In this document: piece by piece, positions 11,150-25,769 of the stretch
Layout: each line of letters starts with the position of its first letter
How positions within the stretch are numbered: position 1 is the first letter of the stretch
NCBI RefSeq assembly: GCF_030758295.1
Contig: NZ_CP132335.1
Span: 5,060,412-5,124,411, forward strand
DNA from: Pararhizobium sp. IMCC21322
Lineage (GTDB): Bacteria > Pseudomonadota > Alphaproteobacteria > Rhizobiales > GCA-2746425
Direction: 5' to 3'
Length of the DNA stretch: 64,000 nucleotides
Position numbers and translations under genes: made by a program
The notes under the pieces: generated by a model
What the model saw: the letters and a program-made list of their open reading frames with translations, nothing else
The model's database searches: none
What the model was told of the DNA's origin: nothing

Positions 11150-11908
11150 ATGCGCTATGCCCTCTTTTACACGCCTCCTGTCAGTCATGGCCTGACACAA
11201 ATTGCTGCTGAATGGCTTGGGCGAGATGCCTATTCCGGTGTGTTTTATAAACAGCCGGTCCACGGTACCCAGAATAGCACTCAAAACAGCACCCAAAACA
11301 GCACGTTGAGCGCAGCCCGCCTTGCAGACCTGACAGCTGCGCCCCGGCGTTATGGATTTCACGGCACATTGAAAGCCCCCTTCCATCTGTCAGAAGACCA
11401 AAGCGAAAACCAGCTTATCAGCGCTATGAAGCGTTTCTGTCAAAGCCGCGAAGCCTTCGCGATGCCAAGTTTGAAAGTTGGGCGATTGGGCCATTTCTTT
11501 GCGCTGGTGCCCGAAAGCAACGCAAGTGATCTGAACCGGTTTGCCGCTGAAATTGTCCGCTATTTTGATATTTTTCGCGCACCCCTGAGCGAAGCGGATT
11601 ATGCAAGACGCAATCCGGACCGGCTGGAAGAGCAGCAACGCGCCTATCTGCAACAATGGGGCTATCCATATATTTTTGACGCCTTTCGCTTTCATATGAC
11701 ATTAACCGGGGCTGTTCCAGACGCGGAAGCTGACCAGATGGAAGACATTTTAAAACCGCTGTTTGACCCGCTTCTGCAAAAACCGTTGATGTGTGATCAT
11801 CTGACATTGTTTTGCGAAGTTGAAAAAGGCGCGCCCTTTATCATTCACACCGCAGTTCCGCTTGGTCCGCTTGCCACATCCCCAATCACAAAGGCTCAAT
11901 CGCTGTGA
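11150..11908 (+). CDS. DUF1045 putative phosphonate metabolism protein (2H-phosphoesterase-like)
   Basis: 252 residues, the family found in C-P lyase operons. Two HxT motifs are visible, FHGTLKAPF near residue 71 and FRFHMTLTG near residue 184, the arrangement of 2H phosphoesterases that act on cyclic phosphates. A cyclic ribose phosphate is formed by C-P lyase, so a role in opening or processing it is a reasonable inference. The stop overlaps the start of phnM (GTGA). Residues 40-51 are a TQNS triplicate encoded by a 12-base tandem repeat, an unusual insert in a surface loop. Confidence 0.88.
   Translation: MRYALFYTPPVSHGLTQIAAEWLGRDAYSGVFYKQPVHGTQNSTQNSTQNSTLSAARLADLTAAPRRYGFHGTLKAPFHLSEDQSENQLISAMKRFCQSREAFAMPSLKVGRLGHFFALVPESNASDLNRFAAEIVRYFDIFRAPLSEADYARRNPDRLEEQQRAYLQQWGYPYIFDAFRFHMTLTGAVPDAEADQMEDILKPLFDPLLQKPLMCDHLTLFCEVEKGAPFIIHTAVPLGPLATSPITKAQSL
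11267..11302 (+). repeat. 12-base tandem repeat, three imperfect copies, inside the DUF1045 gene
   Basis: Units ACCCAGAATAGC, ACTCAAAACAGC and ACCCAAAACAGC run head to tail and encode (TQNS)x3. The unit keeps the frame, so copy-number change would lengthen or shorten the protein by four residues. Confidence 0.8.
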
Positions 11909-13047
11909 GTTCCGAAACTGTTTTCCGCAACGCCAACATCATTCTGGAAACCGAGATTATCAACGGCTCGGTGCAAGTGCGGAATGGCCTGATTGCTGAC
12001 ATCACCCAAGGGTCCTCGACCATTGGCGAGGATTTTGAGGCCGATTATCTGCTGCCCGGACTGGTGGAACTGCACACGGATCACCTGGAAGGCCATTATT
12101 CGCCGCGCCCCGGCCAGCGCTGGAATGTAACGGCTGCGATCCAGTCCCATGATGCGCAGATTTCAGCGGCAGGCATTACAACTGTTCTGGATTGCCTGCG
12201 CATTGGCACAAATAATGAGGGCAATGATTTCGAAGAAGATGAAATGCGCAAAATGGCGGACGCTCTTAAAAAAGCGGGCCAGGAGGGGCGATTGCGTGCA
12301 GAGCATCTGCTGCATTTAAGGTGCGAAGTGTCAGCATCTGATGTGATGGAACAATTTGCACAGTTCGATGGCGTATCGGAAATCCGGCTCGTATCACTGA
12401 TGGATCACGCGCCGGGACAGCGCCAATTCCAATCCATGGAACAATACACCCTCTACTACAAGACCATGAAGGGTCTTTCCGACGAAGCCTTTGATATTTT
12501 TGTGAAAAACCGCATTGCCCGGTCTGATCGTTATTCTGACCCGCACCGTAAAATGCTTGCCGATATTTGCAACAAACGCGGCATACCCATGGCCAGTCAT
12601 GACGATGCCAGTCTGGATCACGTGCAGGAATCCATTGATTTCGGTGTTCGGCTGGCAGAGTTTCCAACCAGTCTTGAAGCAGCCAAAGCCTCTCATGATG
12701 CGGGTTTAAGGGTGTTGATGGGTGCGCCGAATGTTGTGCGCGGCGGCTCCCACTCCGGCAATATTGCCGCCGCTGATCTGGCAAAGTCCGGTGTGCTTGA
12801 TGTTCTGTCATCTGATTACGTGCCATTCAGCATCATGCATGCCCCCTTTGTGCTGGCAGATGATCCCGATATGGCATTGCCACAAGCGATTGCCATGGTC
12901 ACCGCAACACCTGCAAAAGCCGTTGGCCTGGACGATCGGGGCCGCATTGAAGCCGGTTTACGGGCCGATCTTGTCAGGGTTCGGCACAGTGACGACGAAG
13001 TTCCACTGGTCCGGTCTGTCTGGCGGCAAGGACAGCGGGTAAGCTGA
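11905..13047 (+). CDS. phnM: Alpha-D-ribose 1-methylphosphonate 5-triphosphate diphosphatase PhnM
   Basis: 380 residues, amidohydrolase superfamily. It shows HTDHLEGH near residue 55 and SHDDAS near residue 232, the metal-binding and catalytic pattern of PhnM. The enzyme removes pyrophosphate from ribose 1-methylphosphonate 5-triphosphate, giving the 5-phosphate on which C-P lyase acts. The GTG start overlaps the DUF1045 stop by four bases, and the stop shares a base with phnN (TGATG), so three proteins are translated together. The C-P lyase core (phnGHIJKL) is not in this window. Confidence 0.92.
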   Translation: MSSETVFRNANIILETEIINGSVQVRNGLIADITQGSSTIGEDFEADYLLPGLVELHTDHLEGHYSPRPGQRWNVTAAIQSHDAQISAAGITTVLDCLRIGTNNEGNDFEEDEMRKMADALKKAGQEGRLRAEHLLHLRCEVSASDVMEQFAQFDGVSEIRLVSLMDHAPGQRQFQSMEQYTLYYKTMKGLSDEAFDIFVKNRIARSDRYSDPHRKMLADICNKRGIPMASHDDASLDHVQESIDFGVRLAEFPTSLEAAKASHDAGLRVLMGAPNVVRGGSHSGNIAAADLAKSGVLDVLSSDYVPFSIMHAPFVLADDPDMALPQAIAMVTATPAKAVGLDDRGRIEAGLRADLVRVRHSDDEVPLVRSVWRQGQRVS

Positions 13048-13646
13048 TGCCGCTGATGTCTGATCAAACGACGGGTCACACCACTGGCCACCCGACCGGA
13101 ACCGTTTTTGTAATTGTCGGCCCAAGCGGCTCGGGAAAAGATACGCTCATAAACTGGTTGCGTGCTGAACTGCAGGACCGCAGTGAAATTCTGTTCGTCC
13201 GCCGTATTGTGACGCGCCCTTCTGACAAGGGTCATGAGGATCATGACACCATGGAACTTGCGCAATTTCTGTCTGCCAAAGAGGCTGGCGCATTCGCCAC
13301 AACCTGGCAGGCTCATGATCTGCATTATGCCATTCCCGCCTCCGCCAAAGATCATGTGGATCTGGGTGGTTTGGCAATTCTGAACGGCGCACGCCGTGCA
13401 TTGGGTCAACTGGAAGCGACTTTCGCCCAGTTGCAGATCATCCATCTGGATGTGGCCCCTGCCATTCTTGCCGGACGGCTTGCCAATCGTGGACGCAACA
13501 GCGACACAAACCTGTCCGCAAGGCTGGCCCAGCAGAAGCTCGATCTTCAGGCCAAAACACCCATCATTCATGTCAAAAATGACGGCCCGGTGGACGAGGC
13601 TGGGCGGCAGATTGTGAAGCTGATTGACCAGCATCAACAGCGATGA
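13047..13646 (+). CDS. phnN: Ribose 1,5-bisphosphate phosphokinase PhnN
   Basis: 199 residues of guanylate-kinase fold with the P-loop GPSGSGKDTL near residues 24-33. PhnN phosphorylates ribose 1,5-bisphosphate to PRPP, the salvage step at the end of the C-P lyase pathway. Its ATG shares one base with the phnM stop. The first 20 residues (GHTTGHPTGT) are low-complexity and poorly conserved in the family; a slightly later start is possible. Confidence 0.92.
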   Translation: MPLMSDQTTGHTTGHPTGTVFVIVGPSGSGKDTLINWLRAELQDRSEILFVRRIVTRPSDKGHEDHDTMELAQFLSAKEAGAFATTWQAHDLHYAIPASAKDHVDLGGLAILNGARRALGQLEATFAQLQIIHLDVAPAILAGRLANRGRNSDTNLSARLAQQKLDLQAKTPIIHVKNDGPVDEAGRQIVKLIDQHQQR

Positions 13647-13734
13647 TCAGAAAATGAACAGATTCAAAATAACCGTTGAGTTTGCGCTGCAATAGTCTAT
13701 CGATACCCGCGCAAATGGTTGGATTTTAGCGATT

Positions 13735-14562
13735 ATGATGTCTTCACTTGATACTGGCACCCTGATTATCATGGTGCTTTCCATGGCAGCGGCTGGCGGT
13801 GTAACTGGCATTCTGGCAGGTCTGTTCGGCATTGGCGGCGGAGCCGTTTTGGTGCCAATTCTCGTCGAATTCCTGAACTTTCAGGGTGTCGCCCCACAAG
13901 TACAGGCCCATATTGCTGTCGGCACCTCCCTTGCCATCATCGTTCCGACCTCCCTGCGTTCCTTTCGCGCACATCAAAAGCGCGGTGCGCCCGATGAAGC
14001 GTTGTTGCGTAACTGGGTGCTTATGGTGCCCCTGGGAGTGATAATCGCATCCTTCATTGTTGCCTTTGTCTCCGGAGAAGTGCTGAAACTCGTATTTGCC
14101 GTAGTCGCGCTCCTGATCGCTGTAAAAATGCTGTTCAACCGCGCCAAATGGAGCCTTGGCGAAGATCTGCCCGGCCAGCCCGTCAAAGGCGGTGTTGGTT
14201 TCTTCATCGGGTTCATTTCCACCTTCATGGGCATTGGCGGCGGCAATCTGAACAATGTTTTCATGACCTCTTATGGACGTCCCATCCATCAGGCCGTCGC
14301 AACCTCCGCGGGCCTTGGTGCGCTGATAGCGATACCAGGTACCCTCACCTATGTAGTGAGTGGCTGGGGCAATCCTGATCTGCCACCCTTCTCACTGGGA
14401 TATATCAACTTGCTGGCCTTTATCCTGATCATGCCGATCAGCATGCTGGTTGCGCCGGTGGGTGTGAAACTGGCCCATGGACTTTCCAAGCGTCAGATGG
14501 AGATCGCCTTCGGTGTGTTTCTGATTATCGTCTCGGCACGCTTCTTCTATTCAGTGCTTTGA
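13735..14562 (+). CDS. TauE/SafE (TSUP) family membrane transporter
   Basis: 275 residues with about eight membrane segments and the two repeated family motifs, GLFGIGGGAVLVP near residue 29 and TFMGIGGGNLNNV near residue 163. TSUP proteins export sulfite, sulfoacetate or related organosulfur anions; the substrate here is not determined. It could remove sulfite made from sulfolactate by enzymes elsewhere in the window, but there is no physical link. An ATG one codon downstream is also possible. It converges on the next gene with a 12-base overlap. Confidence 0.88.
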   Translation: MMSSLDTGTLIIMVLSMAAAGGVTGILAGLFGIGGGAVLVPILVEFLNFQGVAPQVQAHIAVGTSLAIIVPTSLRSFRAHQKRGAPDEALLRNWVLMVPLGVIIASFIVAFVSGEVLKLVFAVVALLIAVKMLFNRAKWSLGEDLPGQPVKGGVGFFIGFISTFMGIGGGNLNNVFMTSYGRPIHQAVATSAGLGALIAIPGTLTYVVSGWGNPDLPPFSLGYINLLAFILIMPISMLVAPVGVKLAHGLSKRQMEIAFGVFLIIVSARFFYSVL

Positions 14563-15423
14563 CTGAAACGATAGAAGCGTCGTTGCCAGCACAATGATTG
14601 TAGCGCCGATAATGGTGTTCAGCGTCGGCACTTCATTGAACACCAAAAAGCCCACCGTTCCGGAAATAATCAGGCTGGAATAGCCAAGCGGCCCCAGAAA
14701 GCCGGCATCCCCTTTCCAATGTGCCTGCAGAAAACAGAACTGGGCGCATTGCGAAAAGACACCAACAGCCAATAGAAATGGCAGATGATTCGGCGCAATG
14801 AACACCCATGTCTGGCTCGCCGGCAGCGCAGTCAGAAGTGCCAAACCGGCGGTATAAAAGGCCATCATCACAACCGCAGGCGTGCCCTTCAGCTTTCGCG
14901 TTACGATGATCGCAGCAGTCCCGGAAAACACCGTGATTGTGACCGCCAGCAGCCCCCAGGACCAGGGCACATTGTCCGGGCTGAGTGCTATCAGAATGCC
15001 AATGAGACCGACAGCGCCTGCCGCCCATCGGACCAGCGGCACCTTTTCACCCAACACAAAAGCGGCCATGGCAATCAGCACCAATGGCCGGGTAAAATTC
15101 ATGGTCATGAACAGCGCCAATGGCAGGCGTGCCACGGCAAAAAAACTGGCTGTCAGAGTAACGGTCGACAAGGCAATGCGCAGGATTTGCAATCCCCAAT
15201 GCTTAATCTTCGCAAAAGCCTGCCGTTCCCGCCAGACCCAGGGCAACAACAGCAACAGACCCACCAGCGCACGCAAGAACACAATTTGCCAGGACGGATA
15301 GCCGCCCCCCAGTGTCTTGACGATGGATATGGCCCAGATATTGAGGCTCATATCCGCAATCAGCCAGACACCGGCTTTCAAATTCTCTGACTGTGTTGCG
15401 CCGAGCGTTTGTGGCTCAGGCAT
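14551..15423 (-). CDS. EamA/DMT-family transporter
   Basis: About 290 residues, ten predicted membrane helices in two EamA repeats. The ATG at 15423 overlaps the stop of the PIG-L gene by eight bases, so I prefer it to the TTG at 15432. DMT proteins usually export amino acids, nucleosides or drugs. Its place as last gene in the ROK-PIG-L-DMT operon suggests movement of a substrate or product of the deacetylase pathway. It overlaps the convergent TauE gene by 12 bases. Confidence 0.85.
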   Translation of the reverse strand: MPEPQTLGATQSENLKAGVWLIADMSLNIWAISIVKTLGGGYPSWQIVFLRALVGLLLLLPWVWRERQAFAKIKHWGLQILRIALSTVTLTASFFAVARLPLALFMTMNFTRPLVLIAMAAFVLGEKVPLVRWAAGAVGLIGILIALSPDNVPWSWGLLAVTITVFSGTAAIIVTRKLKGTPAVVMMAFYTAGLALLTALPASQTWVFIAPNHLPFLLAVGVFSQCAQFCFLQAHWKGDAGFLGPLGYSSLIISGTVGFLVFNEVPTLNTIIGATIIVLATTLLSFQSKH

Positions 15424-17794
15424 CTGCCACAAGATTTGCCATGAGCCTGAAGGCGCCGGGCGTCAGTTTCTCCATTTGATGATGTAAAATCAGCGAAGTG
15501 TGCGTGTGCCGACCATAGCCGATACGGGCAGACAGCAGCGCACCCTCATGCGGGTCTTCGCTGGGGTCGGCCATCGAGAGCAGCGGCTTGTAATCACTCG
15601 CCCAGGCTTTGGCAAAATAGAGCCCACGCTCCTTGTGCCAGTTCGCCCAGTCCCCTGCATTAATTCGGTTGGGACTATTGAGCAGCTTATGATCTTTGAT
15701 CAGATGCGTCACCGCGGCATTCTCATCCGTGACGCGCCAACGCAGGGATGGTTTGCCAATCTCCAGATGGCGCGGTGGCACCTCATCTGCATCCCAGGCA
15801 TCCCATGGCCGATGGTAGAGCGTCAGCAGGTGGCCGCCCCTCTCGATCCAGGAATGTACAAGAGCCATGGCAGCCCGCAATGCCGGGCGCGTGCGCAGGG
15901 CAAAAATGCCAACAACCAGCGTATCAAATTCGCTGAGATCAGCTTCCGTCAGTTGATCGTCGGCAAGCTCTGTCACGTTCAAACCGAGGGCCCGCAGCCA
16001 ATGCGCCACACGATCATTGCCACCGCCCACATAGGCGATTGAAACATCCGGCAAGGTCACATCAACAACCCGCAATGTCAGGAGCGCAGGCGTGGCGCGC
16101 ATCCGCTGCGCAATGTGCGGATAGGAAAAACGGCGCACCATCATGGCGTTCCGCCCGCCCAGCAATAGCGGAATTTTGTAAAGGCCGGGCTCTACATCAT
16201 CCGGCACTGTCAGGGTGAACCCGGTTTCCGAAGGCGAAGCCTGCCAGGCTCCGCTTTGGTCGGGCAGAACCAGTTCGGCTTTGGCATGCTGCGGAAAAAT
16301 ATCACCAAGCTGAAGAGCAACATGTCTGCCCGGTGCCGCCCGGTTGATCACCGCGCAATCAGGCACCATGGTGGCACTTCTGGCTGGCAGAACCAGCGGC
16401 GGTGTTTCAAACGCCATGCTGCTGACAGATGTGACACCGTCATACGTCAGCAGAAAACGCACCGAAGGGGCCGCTGCATGACCGGGAATGTAGCGCGCCG
16501 GATAGGGATCAGATACGGGCGCACGATGTGACACCGACATGACCTCATCTTCAAGCTTCCAGCCTTCTTCCAGAACCGGTTCAGCCTTCACCACAACGTC
16601 ACGAATGGCGGCCGGCTTGATCTGCAAATCCACAGGCACCGCGTCGCCCGGCCGAAGAGCGTCCTGACCAAGCGTGGCCAGCACATCGGCACCTGTCGCA
16701 ATGCGGATCACATGAGATAATTGCTCTTCTTTCAAAAGCAGACGATGCAACACCTCACTCTGGCTTTCTTCCGGGCAGGCCTGATAGGCGAGGCGAATGG
16801 GCCTTAGAGCGTCCGTTGCCGCTTTGAGAACTGCGTTGAAATGTGGAAAGCTTTCCAGCGCCGCAAGGCAGGCTTTATGGGCCAGCTGCAAGTCCCCTGC
16901 AATAACATCCGCATTGGCGAATTCCGCAAGTGCGCCAAGATTGGCGGGCAGTCCACTGCTCAGCGTCTCGTCAGGTCCGTCCAGACGCGATTGGGACAAA
17001 TGCAATGGCCATTTGTTGCTGGCCCCGAACGGGACCCAGGAACCCATCCCCTGTGTGCGGTGAAAAACCCTGGATTGCTGACCGATCTGCGCCCAGCTCC
17101 AGCCGGTCACTGGGTCCTCGCCATCGGCATCAATCACCAGACTTACGGGCGGCGGCGGCAAATCATCATCATAAGCGTCACCGGCACCAGACCACGCCGG
17201 AAGATAGATTTTCTTCACTTCCCATGGCGCCAATGCAATTTCGGTATACTCTGAATCACCCGCTGCCTTGGCTGCCTGAAAAGCCATCTGCGTCATGGCC
17301 CGGTGGTGTCCATGCTGTCCGGGAATGTCCAGAAAGGTGGGGCAGATAATGTCTGGCCGCTCTGTTCGAAGAATTTCCACAAACCGCTTCAAAGTGCGTT
17401 CCGGGCCCCATTTCTGAAGGGTTTCCTCGCCGCTTTTGGAAAAGCCAAAATCAAAAACGCTGTCGTCCGGGCTCTCCGAGAGCCAATAAAGACGCAGATT
17501 GAGCACATCTGCCGCGCGTTCCATTTCCGCTGTGCGGACAACGCCAAGATCCCCGGTGGCCTCTGTACCAAGATCATTCTGTCCGCCCTCGCCCCGATTG
17601 GCACAGGCGCAGGACAGTGACAGCCCGTCCCGAAAGCCAAGCGCTGCCAGCATCTGTGACGTTTCATCATCAGGATGCGCGCCCGTATTCATGAACGACA
17701 CAACGCTTTTGAGCGGCTGCAATGCCCGCCACAGAGCTACGATACGGGGCGACTGCATCTGATCGAAAATGCGTTGTGGATCAGTCTTCGGCAT
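15416..17794 (-). CDS. Large PIG-L/LmbE-family deacetylase with C-terminal extension
   Basis: 792 residues, more than three times the usual 220-280 of the family. The N-terminal 250 residues carry the zinc site: AHPDDE (H40, D43) and H161/H163/H164 in GQHGHHRA. PIG-L enzymes deacetylate N-acetylglucosamine conjugates (GlcNAc-PI, GlcNAc-Ins, GlcNAc-malate). The middle looks beta-rich, and the last 200 residues contain FDTLVVGIFALRTRPAL and WIERGGHLLTLYHRP, resembling a glutamine-amidotransferase-like or ThuA-like Rossmann domain. No signal peptide, so cytoplasmic. It starts 17 bases after the ROK regulator stop and overlaps the DMT transporter. Its substrate is probably brought in by the divergent ABC importer. 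Confidence 0.85.
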   Translation of the reverse strand: MPKTDPQRIFDQMQSPRIVALWRALQPLKSVVSFMNTGAHPDDETSQMLAALGFRDGLSLSCACANRGEGGQNDLGTEATGDLGVVRTAEMERAADVLNLRLYWLSESPDDSVFDFGFSKSGEETLQKWGPERTLKRFVEILRTERPDIICPTFLDIPGQHGHHRAMTQMAFQAAKAAGDSEYTEIALAPWEVKKIYLPAWSGAGDAYDDDLPPPPVSLVIDADGEDPVTGWSWAQIGQQSRVFHRTQGMGSWVPFGASNKWPLHLSQSRLDGPDETLSSGLPANLGALAEFANADVIAGDLQLAHKACLAALESFPHFNAVLKAATDALRPIRLAYQACPEESQSEVLHRLLLKEEQLSHVIRIATGADVLATLGQDALRPGDAVPVDLQIKPAAIRDVVVKAEPVLEEGWKLEDEVMSVSHRAPVSDPYPARYIPGHAAAPSVRFLLTYDGVTSVSSMAFETPPLVLPARSATMVPDCAVINRAAPGRHVALQLGDIFPQHAKAELVLPDQSGAWQASPSETGFTLTVPDDVEPGLYKIPLLLGGRNAMMVRRFSYPHIAQRMRATPALLTLRVVDVTLPDVSIAYVGGGNDRVAHWLRALGLNVTELADDQLTEADLSEFDTLVVGIFALRTRPALRAAMALVHSWIERGGHLLTLYHRPWDAWDADEVPPRHLEIGKPSLRWRVTDENAAVTHLIKDHKLLNSPNRINAGDWANWHKERGLYFAKAWASDYKPLLSMADPSEDPHEGALLSARIGYGRHTHTSLILHHQMEKLTPGAFRLMANLVADA

Positions 17795-17811
17795 TATTCA
17801 GCACTTCCAGG

Positions 17812-18993
17812 TCAGTTATGCGCAACAATGCGCGGAGTAAGAGCATCATGAATGACCAGTGCCGCACCGCCCAAAGCAGCAGTCATACGGCCCGAGGCCC
17901 CGCGTAACACACGCGGCAATGTTCGGTCCTGTCGCCGCGAGACCGAGGCATCAGGCAGTTCAAGTTCAGCAATCAGAGCATCCAGCAGCGCATCCGGTAA
18001 AGCCCCACCCAGAATCACAGCTTCTGGATCAAACAGATTTTCGACCATACCGATAGCTTGTGACAAGGGTGGGGCAGCTTTTTGCACCCAGTCCAACAAA
18101 TGGGAGTTGCCCTCACCGTGCAGCCGGTTCAGATCATTCACAGTTTCAACGGTAAGTCCGGCAGCAGCCAGTTGATCGCGAATGGCAATTCGGCTTGCGA
18201 AATTCTCCAACCGGCCATGCGCTTTGCCTGACTGCACGATGACATGACCGATTTCACCGGCATTGCCATAAGCCCCCCGCATGACCTCACCATCGGCGAC
18301 AACACCAAGACCAAGCCCGGCGCCAAAATAGATAAAGCAATAGGATTTCAGATTCTGTGCGACACCGCTGATACGCTCGGCAACGGCCGCACCGGTCGCA
18401 TCATTTTCAACCACCACATTTGTGCCAAGCACCTCTTCAAACAGGGCGACCGGATCAATCTCATCCCATCCACTCAGCTCCGACTGGCCATCATCATCCA
18501 ACCCGATCTGACCGAACGGGCCGGGCATGACAATGCCTGCCCCCAACAATTGCGAAGCTTGCAATCCGGTTTCCTGCAGCGCTTCCAATTTTAACTCCAG
18601 CGCATGATCCGACACGATTTTTGGAGTGCTGGACGGCAGACTGATACGCCGTGTGAAACGGGTTTCACCAGCCAGATTCACCAGGGCCGCGAACATCGCA
18701 TCGGGCCGAACCTCGATCCCAAGTGCAAAGGCACCGTCCCGGTTAAGCGTGTATTGAACAACCGGTAGACCGCGTCCCTTAACATCGCGCCCCGCGACAA
18801 TGAGGAAGGCCTCCTCGGTAAGTTCCGCAGTAATGTTGCTGACAGCCTGGGTCGACAGACCTGACAGACGTGCAATCGCTGCCCGCCCGACAGGTTGGTG
18901 TCGGCGCACCAGACCCAGCACCACCTGACGGTTGTGAAGGCGCGTGCGTTCAGCGTTAGAGCCAATGATACGTCTGCTGCGATCCAGTTTCAT
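17812..18993 (-). CDS. ROK-family transcriptional regulator
   Basis: 393 residues: a winged helix-turn-helix at about residues 20-80 (GRAAIARLSGLSTQAVSNI) followed by a ROK sugar-kinase-like domain (NDATGAAVAERISG, FIYFGAGLGLG). The cysteines of the ROK zinc motif are absent (GEIGHVIVQSGKAHGRLE), so it is a regulator, not an active kinase of the usual type. ROK regulators bind sugars or sugar phosphates. It is the first gene of ROK-PIG-L-DMT and is divergent from the sugar ABC operon, with palindromes between them. Confidence 0.9.
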   Translation of the reverse strand: MKLDRSRRIIGSNAERTRLHNRQVVLGLVRRHQPVGRAAIARLSGLSTQAVSNITAELTEEAFLIVAGRDVKGRGLPVVQYTLNRDGAFALGIEVRPDAMFAALVNLAGETRFTRRISLPSSTPKIVSDHALELKLEALQETGLQASQLLGAGIVMPGPFGQIGLDDDGQSELSGWDEIDPVALFEEVLGTNVVVENDATGAAVAERISGVAQNLKSYCFIYFGAGLGLGVVADGEVMRGAYGNAGEIGHVIVQSGKAHGRLENFASRIAIRDQLAAAGLTVETVNDLNRLHGEGNSHLLDWVQKAAPPLSQAIGMVENLFDPEAVILGGALPDALLDALIAELELPDASVSRRQDRTLPRVLRGASGRMTAALGGAALVIHDALTPRIVAHN

Positions 18994-19001
18994 ACAGACC
19001 T

Positions 19002-19043
19002 ATTAATTCAAATCACTTGAATGCTCAACTTACTTGAATTAAT
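19002..19043. promoter_or_regulatory. Inverted repeats between ROK gene and sugar ABC operon: probable ROK operator
   Basis: Perfect 10-base arms ATTAATTCAA (19002-19011) and TTGAATTAAT (19034-19043), with a nested TTCAA-ATCAC-TTGAA (19007-19021). AT-rich TTCAA/TTGAA half sites resemble known NagC/Mlc/XylR operators. The site is 8-50 bases upstream of the ROK start and about 110 bases upstream of the ABC operon, suiting coordinate repression of both directions. Confidence 0.65.
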
Positions 19044-19149
19044 GCTGAATGATACGTGTTTCGCGGTTTGGGAAACCGGACTGCAAGCCGGGAATTTCAG
19101 ATGGGTCGTCAGGAGGCGAACCATAGGTGGATAGAAACGGAGTGATCCC

Positions 19150-20403
19150 ATGAAACAGTTTCGCAATTGGATTTTAGGTGCGGCAACCGCTGCTATCACT
19201 GCTGGCGGCAGTTTTTCAGCACAGGCAGTGGAAATTGAATATTGGCAATACTTCTTTGAAGCGCGCATCACCGCCATGGATCAGCTGATCGAGAATTTTG
19301 AAGCGGCTAATCCCGACATCACCGTCAAAACTACTCACTTCCCCTATGCGGATTACCGCACAAAAGTTGCAGCAGCGATCCCCGCAGGGGAAGGACCGGA
19401 CGTGGTTCAGCTGTTCTATGGTTGGCTCAATGATTATGTGCAAGCTGAGCTGATACAGCCATTGCCTGCAGATCAATTCCCCGTCGAGAAGATCGAAGCC
19501 GAATTCTTCCCCATGGTGCAGGCCATGAAACGCGGCGACAATTACATGGCCCTGCCCACCGCAGTGCGCTCTCTGGCCCTGTTCTACAATAAGCGCCTGT
19601 TCGAAAAGGCTGGCATTGACGGTCCGCCCGCAACACTGGACGAACTGGTAGAAACCGCCAAGAAAATCGCCGAGAAGGACGGTGCAGGCAACATTACCAC
19701 GGTTGGCATTACCACCGGCATGACCGGGCAGGATCATCACTGGTTCCGCGAGGGGCTGATACGCCAGTTTGGCGGCGATCCCTACACTGACAATTATAAA
19801 ACCGTGAATTACAACAGTGATGCCGGGCGCGCTGCGCTGAAATATTATACCGATCTGGAAGATGTTCATGAAGTCACCAAGCTCGGCTTTATGGACGAAG
19901 CTCAGGCAGCGTTCAAAGCGGGCCGTGCCGGCATGCATATTGATGGATCATTCCGCATTGGTGCCCTCAACAAGGTCCGCGGCCTTCAATGGGGCGTGGC
20001 CGAACTGCCTGCAGCAGCGGATGGCACCAAATCCAATTATTCCTCTTATTGGGTGAATGCAGTGACATCCAAGGCGCAAGGCGAAAAATACGATGCCGCA
20101 GTCAAATTCATGGCTTATGTCACATCTGATGAAGCCATGCAGATCTGGCTGGATACGGTTGGCGAACTGCCTGCCAAACCCTCTGCGGCTCTGACAGAGA
20201 CCAATGCCGCTAACGAGACCTTTGGTCCCTTCATCAAAGGTCTGGAATATGCCCACACCACCATTTTTGCCAATGAGAGCGGCCAGCGTCAGATCATGGT
20301 TGATATGATCAGCCGCACCGATCTGGAAGACCAGTCCCTGGCAGACAGTCTGGCAGCGGCGGCAGAAGCTGAACAGAAATTGCTGGATGAGTATTACCAG
20401 TAA
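19150..20403 (+). CDS. Sugar ABC transporter substrate-binding protein (family 1)
   Basis: 417 residues with a signal peptide (cleavage after FSAQA near residue 26) and the mature start VEIEYWQYFFEARI. It is a cluster B, maltose-type binding protein (GPDVVQLFYGW, then NYMALPTAVRSLALFYNKRLFEKAGI). It delivers an oligosaccharide, glycoside or amino-sugar conjugate to the MalF/MalG-like permeases that follow. First gene of the operon running to 25769; repression by the divergent ROK protein is inferred. Confidence 0.92.
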   Translation: MKQFRNWILGAATAAITAGGSFSAQAVEIEYWQYFFEARITAMDQLIENFEAANPDITVKTTHFPYADYRTKVAAAIPAGEGPDVVQLFYGWLNDYVQAELIQPLPADQFPVEKIEAEFFPMVQAMKRGDNYMALPTAVRSLALFYNKRLFEKAGIDGPPATLDELVETAKKIAEKDGAGNITTVGITTGMTGQDHHWFREGLIRQFGGDPYTDNYKTVNYNSDAGRAALKYYTDLEDVHEVTKLGFMDEAQAAFKAGRAGMHIDGSFRIGALNKVRGLQWGVAELPAAADGTKSNYSSYWVNAVTSKAQGEKYDAAVKFMAYVTSDEAMQIWLDTVGELPAKPSAALTETNAANETFGPFIKGLEYAHTTIFANESGQRQIMVDMISRTDLEDQSLADSLAAAAEAEQKLLDEYYQ

Positions 20404-20421
20404 CATTTAATGCACTTTGGT

Positions 20422-20443
20422 CCCGGCGCAGACCAGCGCCGGG
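20422..20443 (+). promoter_or_regulatory. Intercistronic stem-loop after the binding-protein gene
   Basis: Perfect 8-base stem CCCGGCGC (20422-20429)/GCGCCGGG (20436-20443) with a 6-base loop and no T-run. Hairpins at this place in ABC operons protect the upstream message and let the binding protein be made in excess over the permeases. Function inferred. Confidence 0.65.
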
Positions 20444-20495
20444 GCAACCACTCCAACGCTTTGACTTAGGCATCTGAACTCTGACGGGCAGGCGC

Positions 20496-21389
20496 GTGAC
20501 TCTTTACAGAAACCTCACAATTTCACAGAAGCAGATCGTTTGGGCCTGGTGCTTTCTTGCGGTCCCCGCTGTGTTTTATGTGACAATCCGCTTCTACCCG
20601 ACAGCCAATGCCATTCTGGTATCGTTTCAGGATTGGAACCTGTTGGGATCACGCACATGGACCGGTGTTGATAATTACGTAAAGCTGTTCAACGATCCGG
20701 TTTTCTGGAAGGTCTTCAGGAACACATTTCTCTACCTCATCATCGGCACGCCGGTCAGCCTGATCATTGCTTTCATTGTCGCTTATCAGATTGACAAGGT
20801 GCGCTTTATGCATGGCACCATCCGCGCGCTTTATTTCATACCGTTCATGACCAGCGCGGTTGCCATGGCCTGGGTGTGGCGCTGGTTTTATCAACCGGTT
20901 CCCGTCGGCGTTTTCAACAATTTCCTGGCCACATTAAGCATTCCGCAAATCGAGTTTCTGAACTCAACCACCAATGCACTACCTGCCATACTGGCGCCTG
21001 CGGTCTGGGCCGGGCTTGGCTTTCAGATCATCATCTTCATGGCCGGCTTGCGCTCCATCCCGCAAACCTATTACGAGGCGGCGCGCATTGATGGCGTCTC
21101 GCCCATGGCAACTTTGTGGGAAATTACCCTGCCCTTGCTGAAACCCACCATCGTCTTCCTGGTGGTGTTTTCCTCCATCGGTTTTTTGCGGATTTTCGAT
21201 CAGGTCTTCAACATGACCACCAACAATCCGGGCGGTCCGCTGAACTCCACCAAGCCGCTGGTTCTGATGATTTACGACACCGCCTTCAACGGGTTTGATA
21301 TGGGCTACGCCGCGGCCCAAACCGTTGTGCTGTTTCTGGTTTTACTTGTGGTCAGCCTGCTGCAGTTGCGCATTATGAGGGATCGCTGA
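20496..21389 (+). CDS. Sugar ABC transporter permease (MalF/UgpA type)
   Basis: 297 residues, six membrane helices, with the EAA loop EAARIDGVSPMATLWEITLPLLKP near residue 195. The GTG at 20496 is the best available start. It forms a heterodimer with the MalG-type permease whose gene begins one base after its stop. Confidence 0.9.
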   Translation: MTLYRNLTISQKQIVWAWCFLAVPAVFYVTIRFYPTANAILVSFQDWNLLGSRTWTGVDNYVKLFNDPVFWKVFRNTFLYLIIGTPVSLIIAFIVAYQIDKVRFMHGTIRALYFIPFMTSAVAMAWVWRWFYQPVPVGVFNNFLATLSIPQIEFLNSTTNALPAILAPAVWAGLGFQIIIFMAGLRSIPQTYYEAARIDGVSPMATLWEITLPLLKPTIVFLVVFSSIGFLRIFDQVFNMTTNNPGGPLNSTKPLVLMIYDTAFNGFDMGYAAAQTVVLFLVLLVVSLLQLRIMRDR

Positions 21390-21390
21390 C

Positions 21391-22281
21391 ATGAGCACGA
21401 CCGATCTCTCCATCAAGCCAACCTCGGAAGCCCTGCTGAAGAAATCTGGCAATGTTGGCGTGCGCCCACCCCGCAATTACGCACAATTTATCCGCTGGAT
21501 GTTGCTGTTTGGCGGCGGCATTTTGATGATCATGCCGATCATCTACATGTTATCCACATCGTTCAAATTCCCCTTTGAGGTCTACAATCTCAAACTCATC
21601 CCCGAGGAACCGACCTTGGAGAACTACCAATTGGTTCTGGAAGATGGCCGCTTCTTCAACTGGTTCACCAATTCCCTTGTCATCGCAGTTCTGACCACGG
21701 TTTCAAATGTCTTCTTCGACAGCATGGTCGGCTATGCCCTGTGCAAATTCAAATTCCCGGGCCGCTATATTGTCTTCATCGCCATCTTGTCGACGCTGAT
21801 GATCCCGACAGAAATGCTGGTCATTCCCTGGTACCTGATGAGTACAAAGCTTGGTTGGCTTGATACGTATTGGGGCATCATGTTCCCCGGCATGATGACG
21901 GCCTTCGGCGTGTTTTTGATGAAGCAGTTTTTCGAAACTGTGCCGGATGATTTCCTGGAAGCTGCCCGCATTGACGGCCTCAATGAATTCCAAATCTGGT
22001 GGACGGTGGCCATGCCTCTGGTCAAGCCGGCGCTGGCTGCATTGGCGATTTTTGTGTTCCTGGGAAACTGGACCGCTTTCATATGGCCGCTGATCGTCAC
22101 CAACAGTCAGGAACTTTATACTCTGCCGGTTGGACTGACCACATTCAGCGTTGAGCAACAGGTTGAATGGGAACTCATCATGACCGGCGCGGCGCTTTCC
22201 ACATTGCCGACGCTGGTTGTGTTTCTGATATTCCAGCGCTTTATCATTCGCGGTGTTGTAATGGCGGGGCTGAAAGGATGA
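21391..22281 (+). CDS. Sugar ABC transporter permease (MalG/UgpE type)
   Basis: 296 residues, six helices after a hydrophilic N terminus of about 30 residues, with the EAA loop EAARIDGLNEFQIWW near residue 190. The stop overlaps the start of the lyase gene by four bases (ATGA), so importer and enzyme are co-translated. Confidence 0.9.
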   Translation: MSTTDLSIKPTSEALLKKSGNVGVRPPRNYAQFIRWMLLFGGGILMIMPIIYMLSTSFKFPFEVYNLKLIPEEPTLENYQLVLEDGRFFNWFTNSLVIAVLTTVSNVFFDSMVGYALCKFKFPGRYIVFIAILSTLMIPTEMLVIPWYLMSTKLGWLDTYWGIMFPGMMTAFGVFLMKQFFETVPDDFLEAARIDGLNEFQIWWTVAMPLVKPALAALAIFVFLGNWTAFIWPLIVTNSQELYTLPVGLTTFSVEQQVEWELIMTGAALSTLPTLVVFLIFQRFIIRGVVMAGLKG

Positions 22282-23765
22282 CCGATCTCACCAAATTCCC
22301 CCACCCTGTTTACAAAGACACGGTTCTGGCACCGTTGTTTGAAGGCGCAAAAGCGCATTATGTGGGCGCAGTGCGCAACATCAACCGCGCGCATCTGGTA
22401 ATGCTTAACGAGACCGGCATTCTGGACGCGTCCATCTCAGCTGCCATCGCAAAAGCCCTGTCCGACATCGACACTGAAATTGATGTGTCAGCGCTCGATT
22501 ACACCGGCGAATATGAAGATTATTTCTTTCTGGTCGAAGCCGAACTGAAGCAGCGACTTGGCCCCGATAGGGGCGGCATGTTGCATACAGCCCGTTCGCG
22601 CAACGACATGGACCACACAATCTTCAAGCTGGCCCTAAAGCAGCGCATCGATCAACTGATTGCGCAGGCGCATCATCTTGCCGGCACAATACTGCAAAAG
22701 GCGCGCGAAGAACGTGACACGCTGATTGTCGCCTATACCCATGGCCAGCCAGCCCAGCCAACCACGTTCGGCCATTATCTGAGCGCAGCCCTTGAAGTCC
22801 TGCTGCGGGATCTGGACCGGCTGCAGACCGCCCGTGATGGGTTGGACCATTGCCCCATGGGCGCTGCCGCCATCACAACATCGGGCTTTCCCATCAGCCG
22901 CGAACGCATGGCCGAATTGCTGGGCTTTTCAGAACCTTTGCGCAATTCCTATGGTTGTATTGCTTCGGTGGATTACGTAACTGGCCTCTACTCGGCACTG
23001 AAATTGATGTTCCTGCATCTGGGACGGCTGGTGCAGGATTTTCAGTTCTGGACCGCTTTTGAAGTGGGGCAACTCCACGTGCCCGACGCATTGGTTCAGA
23101 TCAGCTCGATCATGCCGCAAAAGCGCAATCCGGTCCCGATAGAACATCTGCGCCATATGGCATCGGTCACCTGCGGACGTTGCGACATGATCGTCAACAC
23201 CATGCACAACACCCCCTTTACCGACATGAATGACAGTGAAGGCGAAGTGCAACAGGCGGGCTACGCGGCCTTTGAAAGCGGTGGCCGGGTTCTGGACTTG
23301 CTGGCAGCGCTGATTGAGGCCAGCTCAATTCAGGGCGACAGGGTTCAAGCCACAACAGATGCAGCCTGCATCACCATCACAGAGCTGGCCGACACACTGG
23401 TGCGCAAACAGGGCCTGTCTTTCCGCCAGGCTCACGAGATTACCGCGACGACCTCCCGCGCGGTAATAGCGGCCGGGAAGCCCCTGCGAGAAGGTTTTCC
23501 CGCCTTCTCCAGGGCTTTCCTGGCCCACACAGACCATGCATCGACCATCAGTGAACCGGATTTCATATCGGCCGTCAGTGCAGAAATTTTTGTCGCCTTG
23601 CGCAATCACATCGGCGGCCCTGCGCCCGATGCCATGGATAACGCATTTGCGCATTACACAGCCGTATTGCTAGCACTGCAGGATCGACAAACCAACGCAA
23701 CCAAGCGGGAAGCAACCGCGCATGACGCCTTGCAGCAGGCGTTCAACAGGCTGATGCAGGAGTAA
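22278..23765 (+). CDS. Argininosuccinate lyase-like protein (fumarase/aspartase superfamily)
   Basis: 495 residues from the ATG overlapping the permease stop. It has HTARSRND (103-110; HTGRSRND in argininosuccinate lyase), a catalytic-histidine region AYTHGQPAQPTT (153-163) and the superfamily signature SSIMPQKRNP (276-285). Members eliminate fumarate from succinyl-type C-N or C-O conjugates. Being inside a sugar-import operon, between permeases and ATPase, argues against arginine biosynthesis. It more likely cleaves an imported sugar-linked aspartate, malate or similar acid to fumarate plus an amino sugar or sugar. That substrate is inferred. Confidence 0.85.
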   Translation: MTDLTKFPHPVYKDTVLAPLFEGAKAHYVGAVRNINRAHLVMLNETGILDASISAAIAKALSDIDTEIDVSALDYTGEYEDYFFLVEAELKQRLGPDRGGMLHTARSRNDMDHTIFKLALKQRIDQLIAQAHHLAGTILQKAREERDTLIVAYTHGQPAQPTTFGHYLSAALEVLLRDLDRLQTARDGLDHCPMGAAAITTSGFPISRERMAELLGFSEPLRNSYGCIASVDYVTGLYSALKLMFLHLGRLVQDFQFWTAFEVGQLHVPDALVQISSIMPQKRNPVPIEHLRHMASVTCGRCDMIVNTMHNTPFTDMNDSEGEVQQAGYAAFESGGRVLDLLAALIEASSIQGDRVQATTDAACITITELADTLVRKQGLSFRQAHEITATTSRAVIAAGKPLREGFPAFSRAFLAHTDHASTISEPDFISAVSAEIFVALRNHIGGPAPDAMDNAFAHYTAVLLALQDRQTNATKREATAHDALQQAFNRLMQE

Positions 23766-23769
23766 ATTC

Positions 23770-24825
23770 TTGGCCACTGTTTCAATCAAAAATCTCGTCA
23801 AATCCTACGGGAAAACCGAAGTGCTCCATGGCATTAATCTGGATGTGGCCGATGGCGAGTTCGTCGTGCTGGTTGGCCCGTCAGGCTGCGGCAAGTCGAC
23901 GACCTTGCGCATGATCGCAGGCCTTGAGGACATCACCTCCGGTGAAATCCATATTGGCGGCGAATTGGTCAATCATCGCGAACCCAAGGAACGCAATATT
24001 GCGATGGTGTTTCAGAATTACGCCATCTACCCCCATATGTCGGTGCGCAAGAATATTGGCTTTGGGCTGCGCACATCAAAAGCTTCAAAAGCGGAGAAGG
24101 CTGCTCGTATTGACGAAGTCGCCGAGTTGCTGAGCATGACAGATCTGCTGGACCGCCGTCCCAACCAACTGTCTGGCGGCCAGCGCCAGCGCGTTGCCAT
24201 TGGCCGGGCCATGGTGCGCGATCCATCCGCTTTTTTATTCGACGAACCACTGTCCAATCTGGATGCCCAATTGCGCACCCAGATGCGTCTGGAAATCAAG
24301 AAATTGCATCAGCGTGTAGGCAACACCATCATCTTTGTCACCCATGATCAGGTTGAAGCCATGACCATGGCCGACCGCATAGTCATCATGAAGGACGGCC
24401 ATATTCAGCAGGTCGGCACACCCTTTGATGTGTTTCACAAACCGGCCAACAAATTTGTTGCCCAATTTATCGGTGCCCCTTCAATGAACATGATTGAAGG
24501 CAGGCTGGCAAACGGCATTGTCACTCTGGATGGCGATCTGCAAATCCCGATTGAGACAAGCTCTACCCATAGCGGACCGGTTACATTAGGGCTGCGGCCC
24601 GATGATCTGCTGGTCAGCGATCAGGACGGGCAGTTTGAAGGACAGGTGAATGTGCTGGAGCCCCTTGGGTCTGAAACACTTGTTTATGTTTCAGTTGGCG
24701 GCAAGGAATTGATTGCCAAAGCATCTGGCCGCACTCCCCCGCAGCTCGGAAGCACCATCAAGCTCAACGCGGCCCCGGAAAACATGCATCTCTTTGACAA
24801 CGCGACCGGGGAGGCGTTGCGGTAA
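23770..24825 (+). CDS. Sugar ABC transporter ATP-binding protein (MalK/UgpC type)
   Basis: 351 residues with Walker A GPSGCGKST, signature LSGGQRQR, Walker B FLFDEPL and a C-terminal TOBE/OB domain. The start is an unusual TTG at 23770, supported by AGGAG at 23758-23762. It energises the MalF/G pair. Its stop shares a base with the next ATG (TAATG). Confidence 0.92.
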   Translation: MATVSIKNLVKSYGKTEVLHGINLDVADGEFVVLVGPSGCGKSTTLRMIAGLEDITSGEIHIGGELVNHREPKERNIAMVFQNYAIYPHMSVRKNIGFGLRTSKASKAEKAARIDEVAELLSMTDLLDRRPNQLSGGQRQRVAIGRAMVRDPSAFLFDEPLSNLDAQLRTQMRLEIKKLHQRVGNTIIFVTHDQVEAMTMADRIVIMKDGHIQQVGTPFDVFHKPANKFVAQFIGAPSMNMIEGRLANGIVTLDGDLQIPIETSSTHSGPVTLGLRPDDLLVSDQDGQFEGQVNVLEPLGSETLVYVSVGGKELIAKASGRTPPQLGSTIKLNAAPENMHLFDNATGEALR

Positions 24826-25769
24826 TGCTGAAAGGTACGAACCAGAAAATTCTATGCGTTGGTCGGATTTATTGTGACCTCATTTTCACTGGCATTCCAA
24901 CCATGCCTGTCCTAGGTCAGGAAACTTTTGCCGACGGGGTCAAGATGCATGCGGGCGGTGGTTGCTACATCACCGCAGCTTATCTCTCCGCCCTTGGCAA
25001 TTCCGTTGCCATAACCGCCATGTTGCCGGCAGAACCGTTCAGAGCCATCGTCACCGATGAGATTAGCCACATGGGTCTGGACGACCGTTTTTGTGAACCG
25101 GCGCCCGTGGGACTGGAGCCGCAAATCACCGTCGCCATGGTACGCAATGATGAGCGGGCCTTTTTGACACGACGCGCCAGCGCAGCGCTGCCACATGATA
25201 TGGCGCGAAGCTTTGCGCTTCCCGATCTGACGCATCTTCATATCGGTGAGTTGACAACACTGATCGAACACCCCGATCTGATCGAGGAGGCGCGCGCGGC
25301 CAATTTGACCATATCGCTTGATTGCGGTTGGGACGAAGCAGCTTTCTGCCATCCCGGCCTGTCTGATCTGATTTCAAAGGTTGATGTATTTCTGCCCAAT
25401 TCCGCAGAAGCTGCCCGCCTGTCTGAAAACGATGTCCCTCTGACATGCGCCGATCATACCATCGTCAAACGCGGTTCCAATGGGGCGGAGCTTTATACAG
25501 GTGGACAAACCTATGTCGGATTAACACAACAGGTTCATGTGATTGACACCACCGGGGCTGGCGACGCGTTCAACGCCGGGTTTTTAACGGCGTGGCTGCA
25601 AGGTCAGAATCCCGAACGCTGCCTGGCAGCAGGAAATCAAGCTGGCTCAATTGCCGTTGGCCGAGTTGGCGGTGCTGCCGGTCTGTCCCCGAAGATGTTT
25701 CAGAACACCGAAACAGCTGTAGAAACACGCACGCGGGCAGCCCTTCAACCAAGCTCTGATTCATGGTAA
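24825..25769 (+). CDS. PfkB-family carbohydrate kinase
   Basis: 314 residues, ribokinase fold. It has an N-terminal glycine motif (HAGGGCYITAAYLSALG) and the C-terminal anion hole and base DTTGAGDAFNAGF near residue 243. It phosphorylates the sugar released in the pathway, probably trapping it in the cell. Last gene of the operon, followed by inverted repeats. Confidence 0.9.
   Translation: MLKGTNQKILCVGRIYCDLIFTGIPTMPVLGQETFADGVKMHAGGGCYITAAYLSALGNSVAITAMLPAEPFRAIVTDEISHMGLDDRFCEPAPVGLEPQITVAMVRNDERAFLTRRASAALPHDMARSFALPDLTHLHIGELTTLIEHPDLIEEARAANLTISLDCGWDEAAFCHPGLSDLISKVDVFLPNSAEAARLSENDVPLTCADHTIVKRGSNGAELYTGGQTYVGLTQQVHVIDTTGAGDAFNAGFLTAWLQGQNPERCLAAGNQAGSIAVGRVGGAAGLSPKMFQNTETAVETRTRAALQPSSDSW

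Follow-up and report, generated by a model that had tools for sequence, protein, structure and literature searches.

The window considered here is the whole 64,000-nucleotide stretch analysed from Pararhizobium sp. IMCC21322 (contig NZ_CP132335.1, positions 5,060,412 to 5,124,411), and two divergent gene runs fill its positions 14551-25769 (Table 1). The leftward run encodes a ROK-family protein, then a 792-aa protein of PIG-L/LmbE fold and then an EamA/DMT transporter, and the rightward run encodes, in this order, a solute-binding protein (SBP), permease 1, permease 2, a lyase related to argininosuccinate lyase (ASL; ArgH), an ABC ATPase and a PfkB kinase. We propose from sequence and gene context, with a probability of roughly 0.6, that this cassette is a dedicated catabolic set for an N-acyl-glucosamine to which a C4 diacid of malyl or aspartyl type is attached. 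To our reading of the sequences, the lyase would release fumarate and the sugar would enter metabolism as glucosamine-6-phosphate.

Conservation of the cassette

We scanned the GTDB species genomes for related lyases and obtained 66 loci (referred to by L-numbers). In 16 of the 21 loci whose lyase is 58-93% identical to that of the window, all eight genes, the EamA/DMT gene being counted as a ninth, lie within 9 kb; of the other five, L021, L024 and L029 are cut by contig ends, L016 is without ROK and PfkB genes and L022 is without PfkB. Lyases of intermediate identity were found in L026 (45%) and L028 (38%). The 41 loci of the scan from L030 on were taken as ordinary ArgH, and the 38 of these with a readable open reading frame (ORF) show the ArgH motif. 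By the same test, none of the 41 had a PIG-L, ROK, SBP, kinase, NagA, NagB or SIS match, and L030 had one DMT match; 21 of them reach the flank length that was required of the lyase-family loci.

The main census covered 56 of 64 loci (window included), those with at least 6 kb upstream and at least 3 kb downstream of the lyase; L019, L021, L024, L102, L108, L110 and L140 were dropped for a short flank and L029 for a lyase cut by a contig end. A match in this census means similarity to 30-odd reference proteins from the same loci with half of the reference covered. Independence of the loci cannot be assumed, since the window, L007 and L008 come from a single genus; the lyase of L008 (Rhizobiales bacterium IMCC20636) is 87% identical to that of the window. 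On this basis, PIG-L was found in 39 loci (the PIG-L ORF of L111 being missed, and the match in L144 lying in an ORF without a Pfam PIG-L domain), an SBP in 47, ROK (regulator or kinase) in 44 and PfkB in 27. A DMT match lies near the lyase in 16 of the 56 loci, and in the flanking ORFs of 23 loci, antisense ORFs aside, nothing but a DMT gene (8 loci) was found beyond the cassette.

The lyase is uncommon, although all 5 genomes of its own genus carry it. At class level, 12 of 385 genomes matched (E 1e-110), and at phylum level 6 of 398 (E 1e-75), its own genome included in both counts. With a Halanaerobiales query, it was found in 15 of 348 genomes of the Anaerocolumna phylum (E 1e-75, both source genomes included), and 33 plasmid records carry it at E 1e-60, including records from Deinococcus and the archaeon Haladaptatus. 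In Alphaproteobacteria the cassette forms a unit of evolution, and sets related to it exist in Bacillota and Deinococcus. On one Haladaptatus plasmid, a lyase of 33% identity annotated argH (L085:7929-9416) has no other cassette match nearby; the lyase is also carried by two further Haladaptatus plasmids.

The lyase in sequence and predicted structure

By its sequence, the lyase is distinct from ArgH. Another ArgH, scoring 587 bits, is encoded in the same genome. We compared 62 lyase-family rows (ORFs of at least 450 aa, window included) with 38 of the 41 ArgH sequences. The Y, Q and K of the YNKDxQEDK motif, which we take from crystal structures to serve the arginine side of ArgH, are present in 37, 38 and 38 of the 38 ArgH rows and in 0, 0 and 0 of the 62 lyase-family rows, where D, E and Q mostly stand instead. 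The T-H pair, the mobile-loop S-S and K, and the N of SRND, presumably catalytic, are retained in 62 of 62 family rows. Our reading is that the enzyme would keep the same fumarate end and accept a new leaving group. In a quick tree of 71 of the 103 rows (25 of the 38 ArgH and 7 of the 62 lyase-family rows were omitted beforehand for size), 15 ArgH rows stood apart from 55 lyase-family rows and ethylenediaminedisuccinate (EDDS) lyase with a support of 99 in the approximate likelihood ratio test (SH-aLRT). The lyase family itself had an SH-aLRT of 88, and EDDS lyase fell on its side of the tree, but on a long branch of 2.34 that is flagged unsure.

An AlphaFold model of the lyase (mean predicted local distance difference test score, pLDDT, 88.7) matched EDDS lyase best, with a Z of 37.7, a root-mean-square deviation of 2.5 and 27% identity over 462 aligned residues, and matched ASL structures at a Z of 34.9 or lower. 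Active sites in this superfamily are assembled from several subunits, which a single-chain model does not display. The sequence match to EDDS lyase extends to residue 493, beyond the ASL matches shown, and of the PDB relatives listed, EDDS lyase alone aligns through the C-terminal helices; it has Tyr-Thr-Gln where the lyase family has Tyr-Thr-His. The original prediction had held that the lyase is no ordinary ArgH and had suggested that its predicted structure be compared with ASL; the second ArgH in the genome, the motif loss and the separate branch agree with the former, and the latter comparison places the model nearer to EDDS lyase.

That the lyase is instead a second ArgH, or has some other part in arginine metabolism, the sugar genes being incidental neighbours, would explain why it scores 293.6 bits on the argH equivalog TIGR00838, over the cut-off of 279.5, a score that counts against our proposal. 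The eleven annotated plasmid records that were opened likewise label the lyase argH or argininosuccinate lyase. However, the lyase sits in a sugar-importer operon, and an ArgH role was rejected given the other ArgH, the motif and the tree; we regard it as scarcely credible. TIGR00838 hence appears to admit a non-ArgH lyase (window 22278-23765), so that an apparently wrong argH name masks a clade of enzymes that are probably catabolic and span several phyla.

With EDDS lyase as the nearest structure, the lyase could also help to break down an opine or an aminopolycarboxylate like EDDS, in which case the sugar genes would belong to something else. An outer relative of the lyase, L143 (774-14824), does lie among genes for a TAXI/TRAP transporter, a GntR regulator, an octopine-dehydrogenase-like protein, malic enzyme and both fumarase subunits. 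This locus looks like a separate route for an opine or N-succinyl compound, and its fumarase and malic enzyme neighbours fit a fumarate product in the wider family. The CUT1 importer, the ROK protein, the sugar kinase and sometimes aminosugar genes nevertheless recur beside the lyase across phyla, and we hold such a function for the cassette to be quite improbable.

The PIG-L protein

The PIG-L protein is the only PF02585 match in the whole genome. It comprises a PIG-L domain (about residues 30-285), a helical part, beta domains and a C-terminal GATase1/ThuA-like domain (about residues 582-792). According to PMC4101496, the metal layout of the superfamily is H-x-x-D plus a distal H, with a general-base Asp, and most known PIG-L/LmbE members hydrolyse the amide of N-acetylglucosamine (GlcNAc). 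In 43 aligned PIG-L rows, which include two without the HPDD stretch (the second piece of L141, and L144), the metal residues H40, D43 and H164 are found in 42, 41 and 41 rows, H164 being equated with the distal metal His by motif, and the general-base Asp D42 in 41. A model of the protein (pLDDT 84.5) matched MshB (Z 19.1), diacetylchitobiose deacetylase (Z 17.6) and BshB (Z 17.0), and its last 210 residues resemble GATase1/ThuA-like folds (2gk3, Z 17.4; 3rht, Z 17.1), in structure search lists that may miss further folds. Among NCBIfam equivalogs, the best match was mycothiol conjugate amidase Mca (36.8 bits of 277.15), with MshB at 25.7 of 224.35, both under their cut-offs; no BshB model was listed in NCBIfam at E 0.001, and a PDB sequence search with the protein gave no useful match.

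In a crude hydropathy scan, the alphaproteobacterial PIG-L forms had no hydrophobic N-terminus, and the window protein is presumed to be cytosolic. The same scan found a hydrophobic N-terminus on the PIG-L proteins of L136, L139 and L142 and on a long form from Deinococcus actinosclerus. Since it is found in some relatives only, the PIG-L step may occur inside or outside the cell, depending on the relative. In Deinococcus actinosclerus, the long PIG-L protein with its signal-like N-terminus (L084:9485-11713) is accompanied by a small one (L084:14793-15638) in the same gene run as the lyase.

Aminosugar genes beside related lyases

Of the 56 census loci, 9 have a NagB or SIS gene no more than 9 kb from the lyase, compared with 0 of the 21 ArgH loci with long flanks, which serve as controls for chance near a lyase. 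A binomial estimate for at least 9 of 56 gives about 2e-6 if a genome has four deaminase genes per 4 Mb and about 1e-11 if it has one; the estimate assumes independence and is a guide only. The NagB proteins of L080 and L089 score over the TIGR00502 cut-off (251.6 and 242.1 against 236.9), those of L135 and L137 were recognised by a Pfam Glucosamine_iso match, and SIS proteins were found in L012, L017, L082, L154 and L155. Two of the SIS proteins were tested and had NagB-II as best model, at 313 bits in L082 and 174 in L012, under the cut-off of 430. NagA matches were found in 2 of the 56 loci and in L110, which has both SIS and NagA and is not in the 56-locus count for its short flank; NagA scores over the cut-off of 225.65 in L110 and L144 (299.8 and 332.1), and L154 also has a NagA-like match. 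In some relatives, the lyase is thus adjoined by NagB, a NagB-II-like SIS protein or NagA, which makes glucosamine the probable sugar and glucosamine-6-phosphate the likely entry point into metabolism. The NagB of the window genome lies elsewhere (279.5 bits against a cut-off of 236.9).

The gene arrangements differ between these loci. In Loktanella salsilacus, nagB is next to the PIG-L gene and a ROK kinase replaces PfkB; in Paroceanicella (L089), a ROK kinase gene shares 4 bp with nagB downstream of the ATPase gene; and in Roseomonas (L082), a ROK kinase is followed by the NagB-II-like SIS protein. A PfkB match is followed by SIS in L012, L017 and L155, the order in L135 (Anaerocolumna phylum) is lyase-PfkB-nagB, the genes lying 64 and 3 bp apart, and in L137 nagB adjoins an Amidohydro_2 gene and the lyase. 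Hence, the association of lyase and deaminase probably arose several times. About 2 kb from the cassette of L154, an aminosugar cluster (14784-18507) encodes SIS, a regulator, a BadF-type kinase and a second SIS_2-domain protein that is MurQ-like by eye.

The PfkB-SIS order in L012, L017 and L155 is also what an Amadori (fructosyl-amino acid) route would predict, in which the PfkB kinase and the SIS protein would act like FrlD and FrlB on fructose-aspartate, and the window kinase does have a weak fructoselysine 6-kinase match (53.4 bits against 247). At E 1e-10, however, the SIS proteins of L012 and L082 match no models other than NagB-II and GlmS (the FrlB coverage of the library was not checked). 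Four loci carry NagB, and such a route needs neither NagB nor NagA. We therefore consider it very unlikely.

Proposed pathway and its substrate

For glucosamine as the sugar, the following route can be proposed. The ROK protein would control both divergent operons through a private operator, the inverted repeat described below, presumably as a repressor. The CUT1 ABC importer would take up the conjugate, and the PIG-L enzyme, with one metal bound by H40, D43 and H164, would strip the N-acetyl or other acyl group. The ASL-like lyase, its arginine end rebuilt, would then eliminate fumarate and leave glucosamine, which the PfkB kinase (or a ROK or BadF kinase in some relatives) would convert into glucosamine-6-phosphate. 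NagB, encoded elsewhere in the genome, could finally convert this into fructose-6-phosphate and ammonia. The importer, the ROK protein and NagB lead us to infer that the cassette is degradative; a role of the lyase in synthesis of the conjugate was considered and set aside for the same reason. Much of this agrees with the original prediction. Sequence and context back its catabolic cassette, its PIG-L protein of GlcNAc-deacetylase fold and a kinase that could trap a sugar. Its conjugate scheme as a whole is largely upheld, with glucosamine as the probable sugar; the acid may be malate (O-linked) or aspartate (N-linked), and the fumarate step is predicted from the chemistry of the enzyme family.

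The relatives of the cassette vary in a way that bears on this route. The slot of the amide hydrolase is filled by PIG-L, by Amidohydro_2 proteins (L026, L134, L137) or by the creatininase family (L132, L133), sometimes with NagA near, and that of the kinase by PfkB, ROK or BadF proteins. Unrelated enzymes in like slots beside related lyases are expected of a fixed chain, in which an amide is opened, fumarate is released, and glucosamine is phosphorylated and deaminated. In L086, L087, L083 and L104, CUT1 importer genes accompany the lyase with no PIG-L match in reach. Downstream of the lyase-ATPase pair of L083 (Terrarubrum; 13723-17107) lie genes for nadA, L-aspartate oxidase and nadC.

Other observations weigh against the proposal. 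The known ASL-type lyases near the window lyase break C-N bonds and are not known to act on a C-O bond such as that in a malate glycoside. No scored amide hydrolase was found nearby in 12 of the 56 loci (L111, which has a PIG-L ORF, among them). The lyase and PIG-L genes of L105-L107 lie back to back with a family-5 solute-binding gene by the lyase in place of the CUT1 set, L028, L132, L133 and L135 have an importer of another type, and the outermost lyases, L143 and L085, stand in other gene contexts. GalB, a hydratase, matches the PIG-L model at a Z of 17.4, so that the fold alone is no proof of a deacetylase, and the NCBIfam models nearest to the PfkB kinase (ribose-1-phosphate kinase, IolC, ribokinase and fructoselysine kinase) are all far below cut-off. 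Finally, 47 of the 56 loci are without NagB or SIS within 9 kb, and the ArgH controls do not gauge the contents of an ordinary ROK/CUT1 sugar operon.

Among single substrates, the likeliest is GlcNAc-malate, the bacillithiol precursor, or a close relative, a tentative choice that falls well short of even odds. This intermediate of bacillithiol synthesis is the known compound in which glucosamine carries both an acetamide of the kind that PIG-L enzymes open and a malyl group. BshA scored over cut-off in 3 of 31 lyase-bearing genomes and in none of the other 28, for most of which GlcNAc-malate would thus be a foreign nutrient. Cleavage of GlcNAc-malate requires a C-O elimination, and that of an N-linked aspartyl amino sugar only a C-N elimination. 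It is doubtful, but conceivable, that the lyase cleaves the malate-glucosamine C-O bond (glucosaminyl-malate giving glucosamine and fumarate); the cassette would then be the first complete multi-phylum route that consumes the GlcNAc-malate core of bacillithiol, mostly in genomes without their own BshA.

An N-(1,2-dicarboxyethyl) amino sugar as the single substrate is possible too, with the odds clearly against it. We give the same standing to the N-linked variant of the route, in which the amino sugar carries a succinyl (aspartate-type) group on nitrogen, as in a Heyns-type product of fructose and aspartate or asparagine. Here, a C-N elimination like that of EDDS lyase would free glucosamine directly, and the amide hydrolase would open another amide. 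The nearest characterised enzyme and closest solved structure, EDDS lyase, is described as a C-N lyase that adds amines to fumarate. Glucosamine would still be the product, so that NagB fits, and unrelated amidase folds do occupy the amide-hydrolase slot. Yet, by PMC4101496, it is the GlcNAc amide and not a carboxamide that most known PIG-L/LmbE enzymes hydrolyse, and NagA near the lyase in L110 and L144 points to N-acetyl groups. Because of the PIG-L protein, we lean slightly to the malyl over the N-linked form.

The resemblance of the PIG-L model to MshB and BshB could reflect scavenging of bacillithiol, whole or as S-conjugates, with the PIG-L protein as a bacillithiol amidase and the lyase dismantling glucosaminyl-malate. 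The best NCBIfam match, Mca, would suit an amidase, at only 36.8 bits against 277, and the compound would be foreign to the 28 genomes without BshA over cut-off. However, the flanks of 23 loci show no recurrent thiol or cysteine gene (cysteine genes were not sought by name), and three lyase-bearing genomes do encode BshA over cut-off; we judge this explanation improbable.

Organisation and putative control of the locus

Within the rightward run, an ATGA overlap joins permease 2 to the lyase gene (GGATGACC around 22278-22281), the ATPase gene starts with TTG 4 bp downstream of the lyase gene, and the start of the PfkB kinase gene overlaps the ATPase stop (TAATG). In the leftward run, the ATG of the EamA/DMT gene lies inside the last 8 bp of the PIG-L gene (8-bp overlap); as a guess, this transporter may export a by-product. 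The CUT1 importer set is complete, with SBP, two permeases and a MalK/UgpC-type ATPase, as judged by Pfam and by a UgpC subfamily model over cut-off, and the best PDB sequence match of the SBP is the acarbose/maltose-binding protein GacH. The genes that the original prediction had placed at 15416-25769 were all found there with agreeing Pfam families, and the ATGA overlap behind the co-translation it had proposed for lyase and permease is real; the EamA/DMT gene (14551-15423) and the inverted repeat (19003-19042) were absent from it.

Table 1. Coordinates of the cassette genes, the inverted repeat and related solute-binding genes (window positions unless a locus is given).
Feature	Position	Strand	Match or content
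EamA/DMT-family transporter gene (ninth cassette gene)	14551..15423	-	PF00892, 77.5 bits
PIG-L/LmbE-fold protein, 792 aa	15416..17794	-	PF02585, 60.4 bits (gathering score 28.2)
ROK-family protein, presumed transcriptional regulator	17812..18993	-	PF00480, 111.4 bits
Operator-like inverted repeat	19003..19042	no strand	TTAATTCAA-N22-TTGAATTAA, inner half-sites
Solute-binding protein, CUT1 type	19150..20403	+	SBP_bac_8, 141.2 bits; SBP_bac_1/8 families
ABC permease 1	20496..21389	+	BPD_transp_1
ABC permease 2	21391..22281	+	BPD_transp_1
ASL/EDDS-lyase-like lyase of the fumarase/aspartase superfamily, 495 aa	22278..23765	+	Lyase_1 and ASL_C2
UgpC/MalK-type ABC ATPase	23770..24825	+	ABC_tran with TOBE/OB_MalK; NF008653, 500.9 bits (cut-off 432)
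PfkB-family sugar kinase	24825..25769	+	PF00294, 101.3 bits
Family-5 solute-binding gene next to lyase-PIG-L pair	L105:8366-9949, L106:5290-6873, L107:7413-9428		

The inverted repeat, of 40 bp, separates the ROK and SBP gene runs. The pattern TTAAYTCAA-N16-24-TTGARTTAA has one exact site in the whole 5.25-Mb genome, and 100 shuffles of the window gave zero matches to it. Intergenic gaps were measured in 31 cases. An exact match near the ROK-SBP gap was found in 11 fetched loci from genomes other than that of the window, and variants with shorter arms occur in L008 and L011. The best NCBIfam match of the ROK protein is NagC, at 78.1 bits far under the cut-off of 650, and no helix-turn-helix Pfam match was listed for its first 90 residues. 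The label "ROK regulon" given in the original prediction suits a PF00480 protein with a genome-unique, operator-like repeat in the divergent gap, and because the repeat is unique, the regulon probably consists of this locus only.

Relation to known systems

The lyase shares its fold with EDDS lyase of Chelativorans sp. BNC1 (PDB 6g3d-6g3i), whose substrate EDDS is a chelator and not a sugar. Like ArgH, it retains the catalytic loop SSIMPQK, the T-H pair and SRND, but it sits in a sugar-import context. The PIG-L protein has the domain fold and metal residues of MshB, BshB and diacetylchitobiose deacetylase, but it is about three times longer, with the extra beta domains and the C-terminal GATase1/ThuA-like domain. 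The nag operons for GlcNAc and glucosamine resemble the relatives of the cassette in having a kinase, NagB or a NagB-II-like SIS protein, sometimes NagA, and a ROK protein; the cassette differs from them by the ASL-like lyase and, usually, PIG-L. Bacillithiol synthesis and detoxification proceed through BshA-BshB-BshC and Bca. That system serves synthesis or conjugate cleavage and, unlike the cassette, is not known to include a lyase. No description of the gene set was found among the titles and abstract openings that searches of an open-access library listed; the component families are known, whereas neither the lyase clade nor the pathway seems to have been described.

If the proposal is true, amino-sugar conjugates are among the substrates of ASL-type enzymes, and PIG-L deacetylases serve nutrition as well as the synthesis of thiols or anchors. 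Conjugates of glucosamine with a diacid would then also exist in nature in a pool big enough to select a dedicated importer. The cassette also yields a short list of substrates suited to a fumarate assay.

At 11905-13646 of the window lie genes for an amidohydrolase and a small P-loop kinase that, by eye, resemble PhnM and PhnN closing a phosphonate operon; Pfam gives general families only for both.

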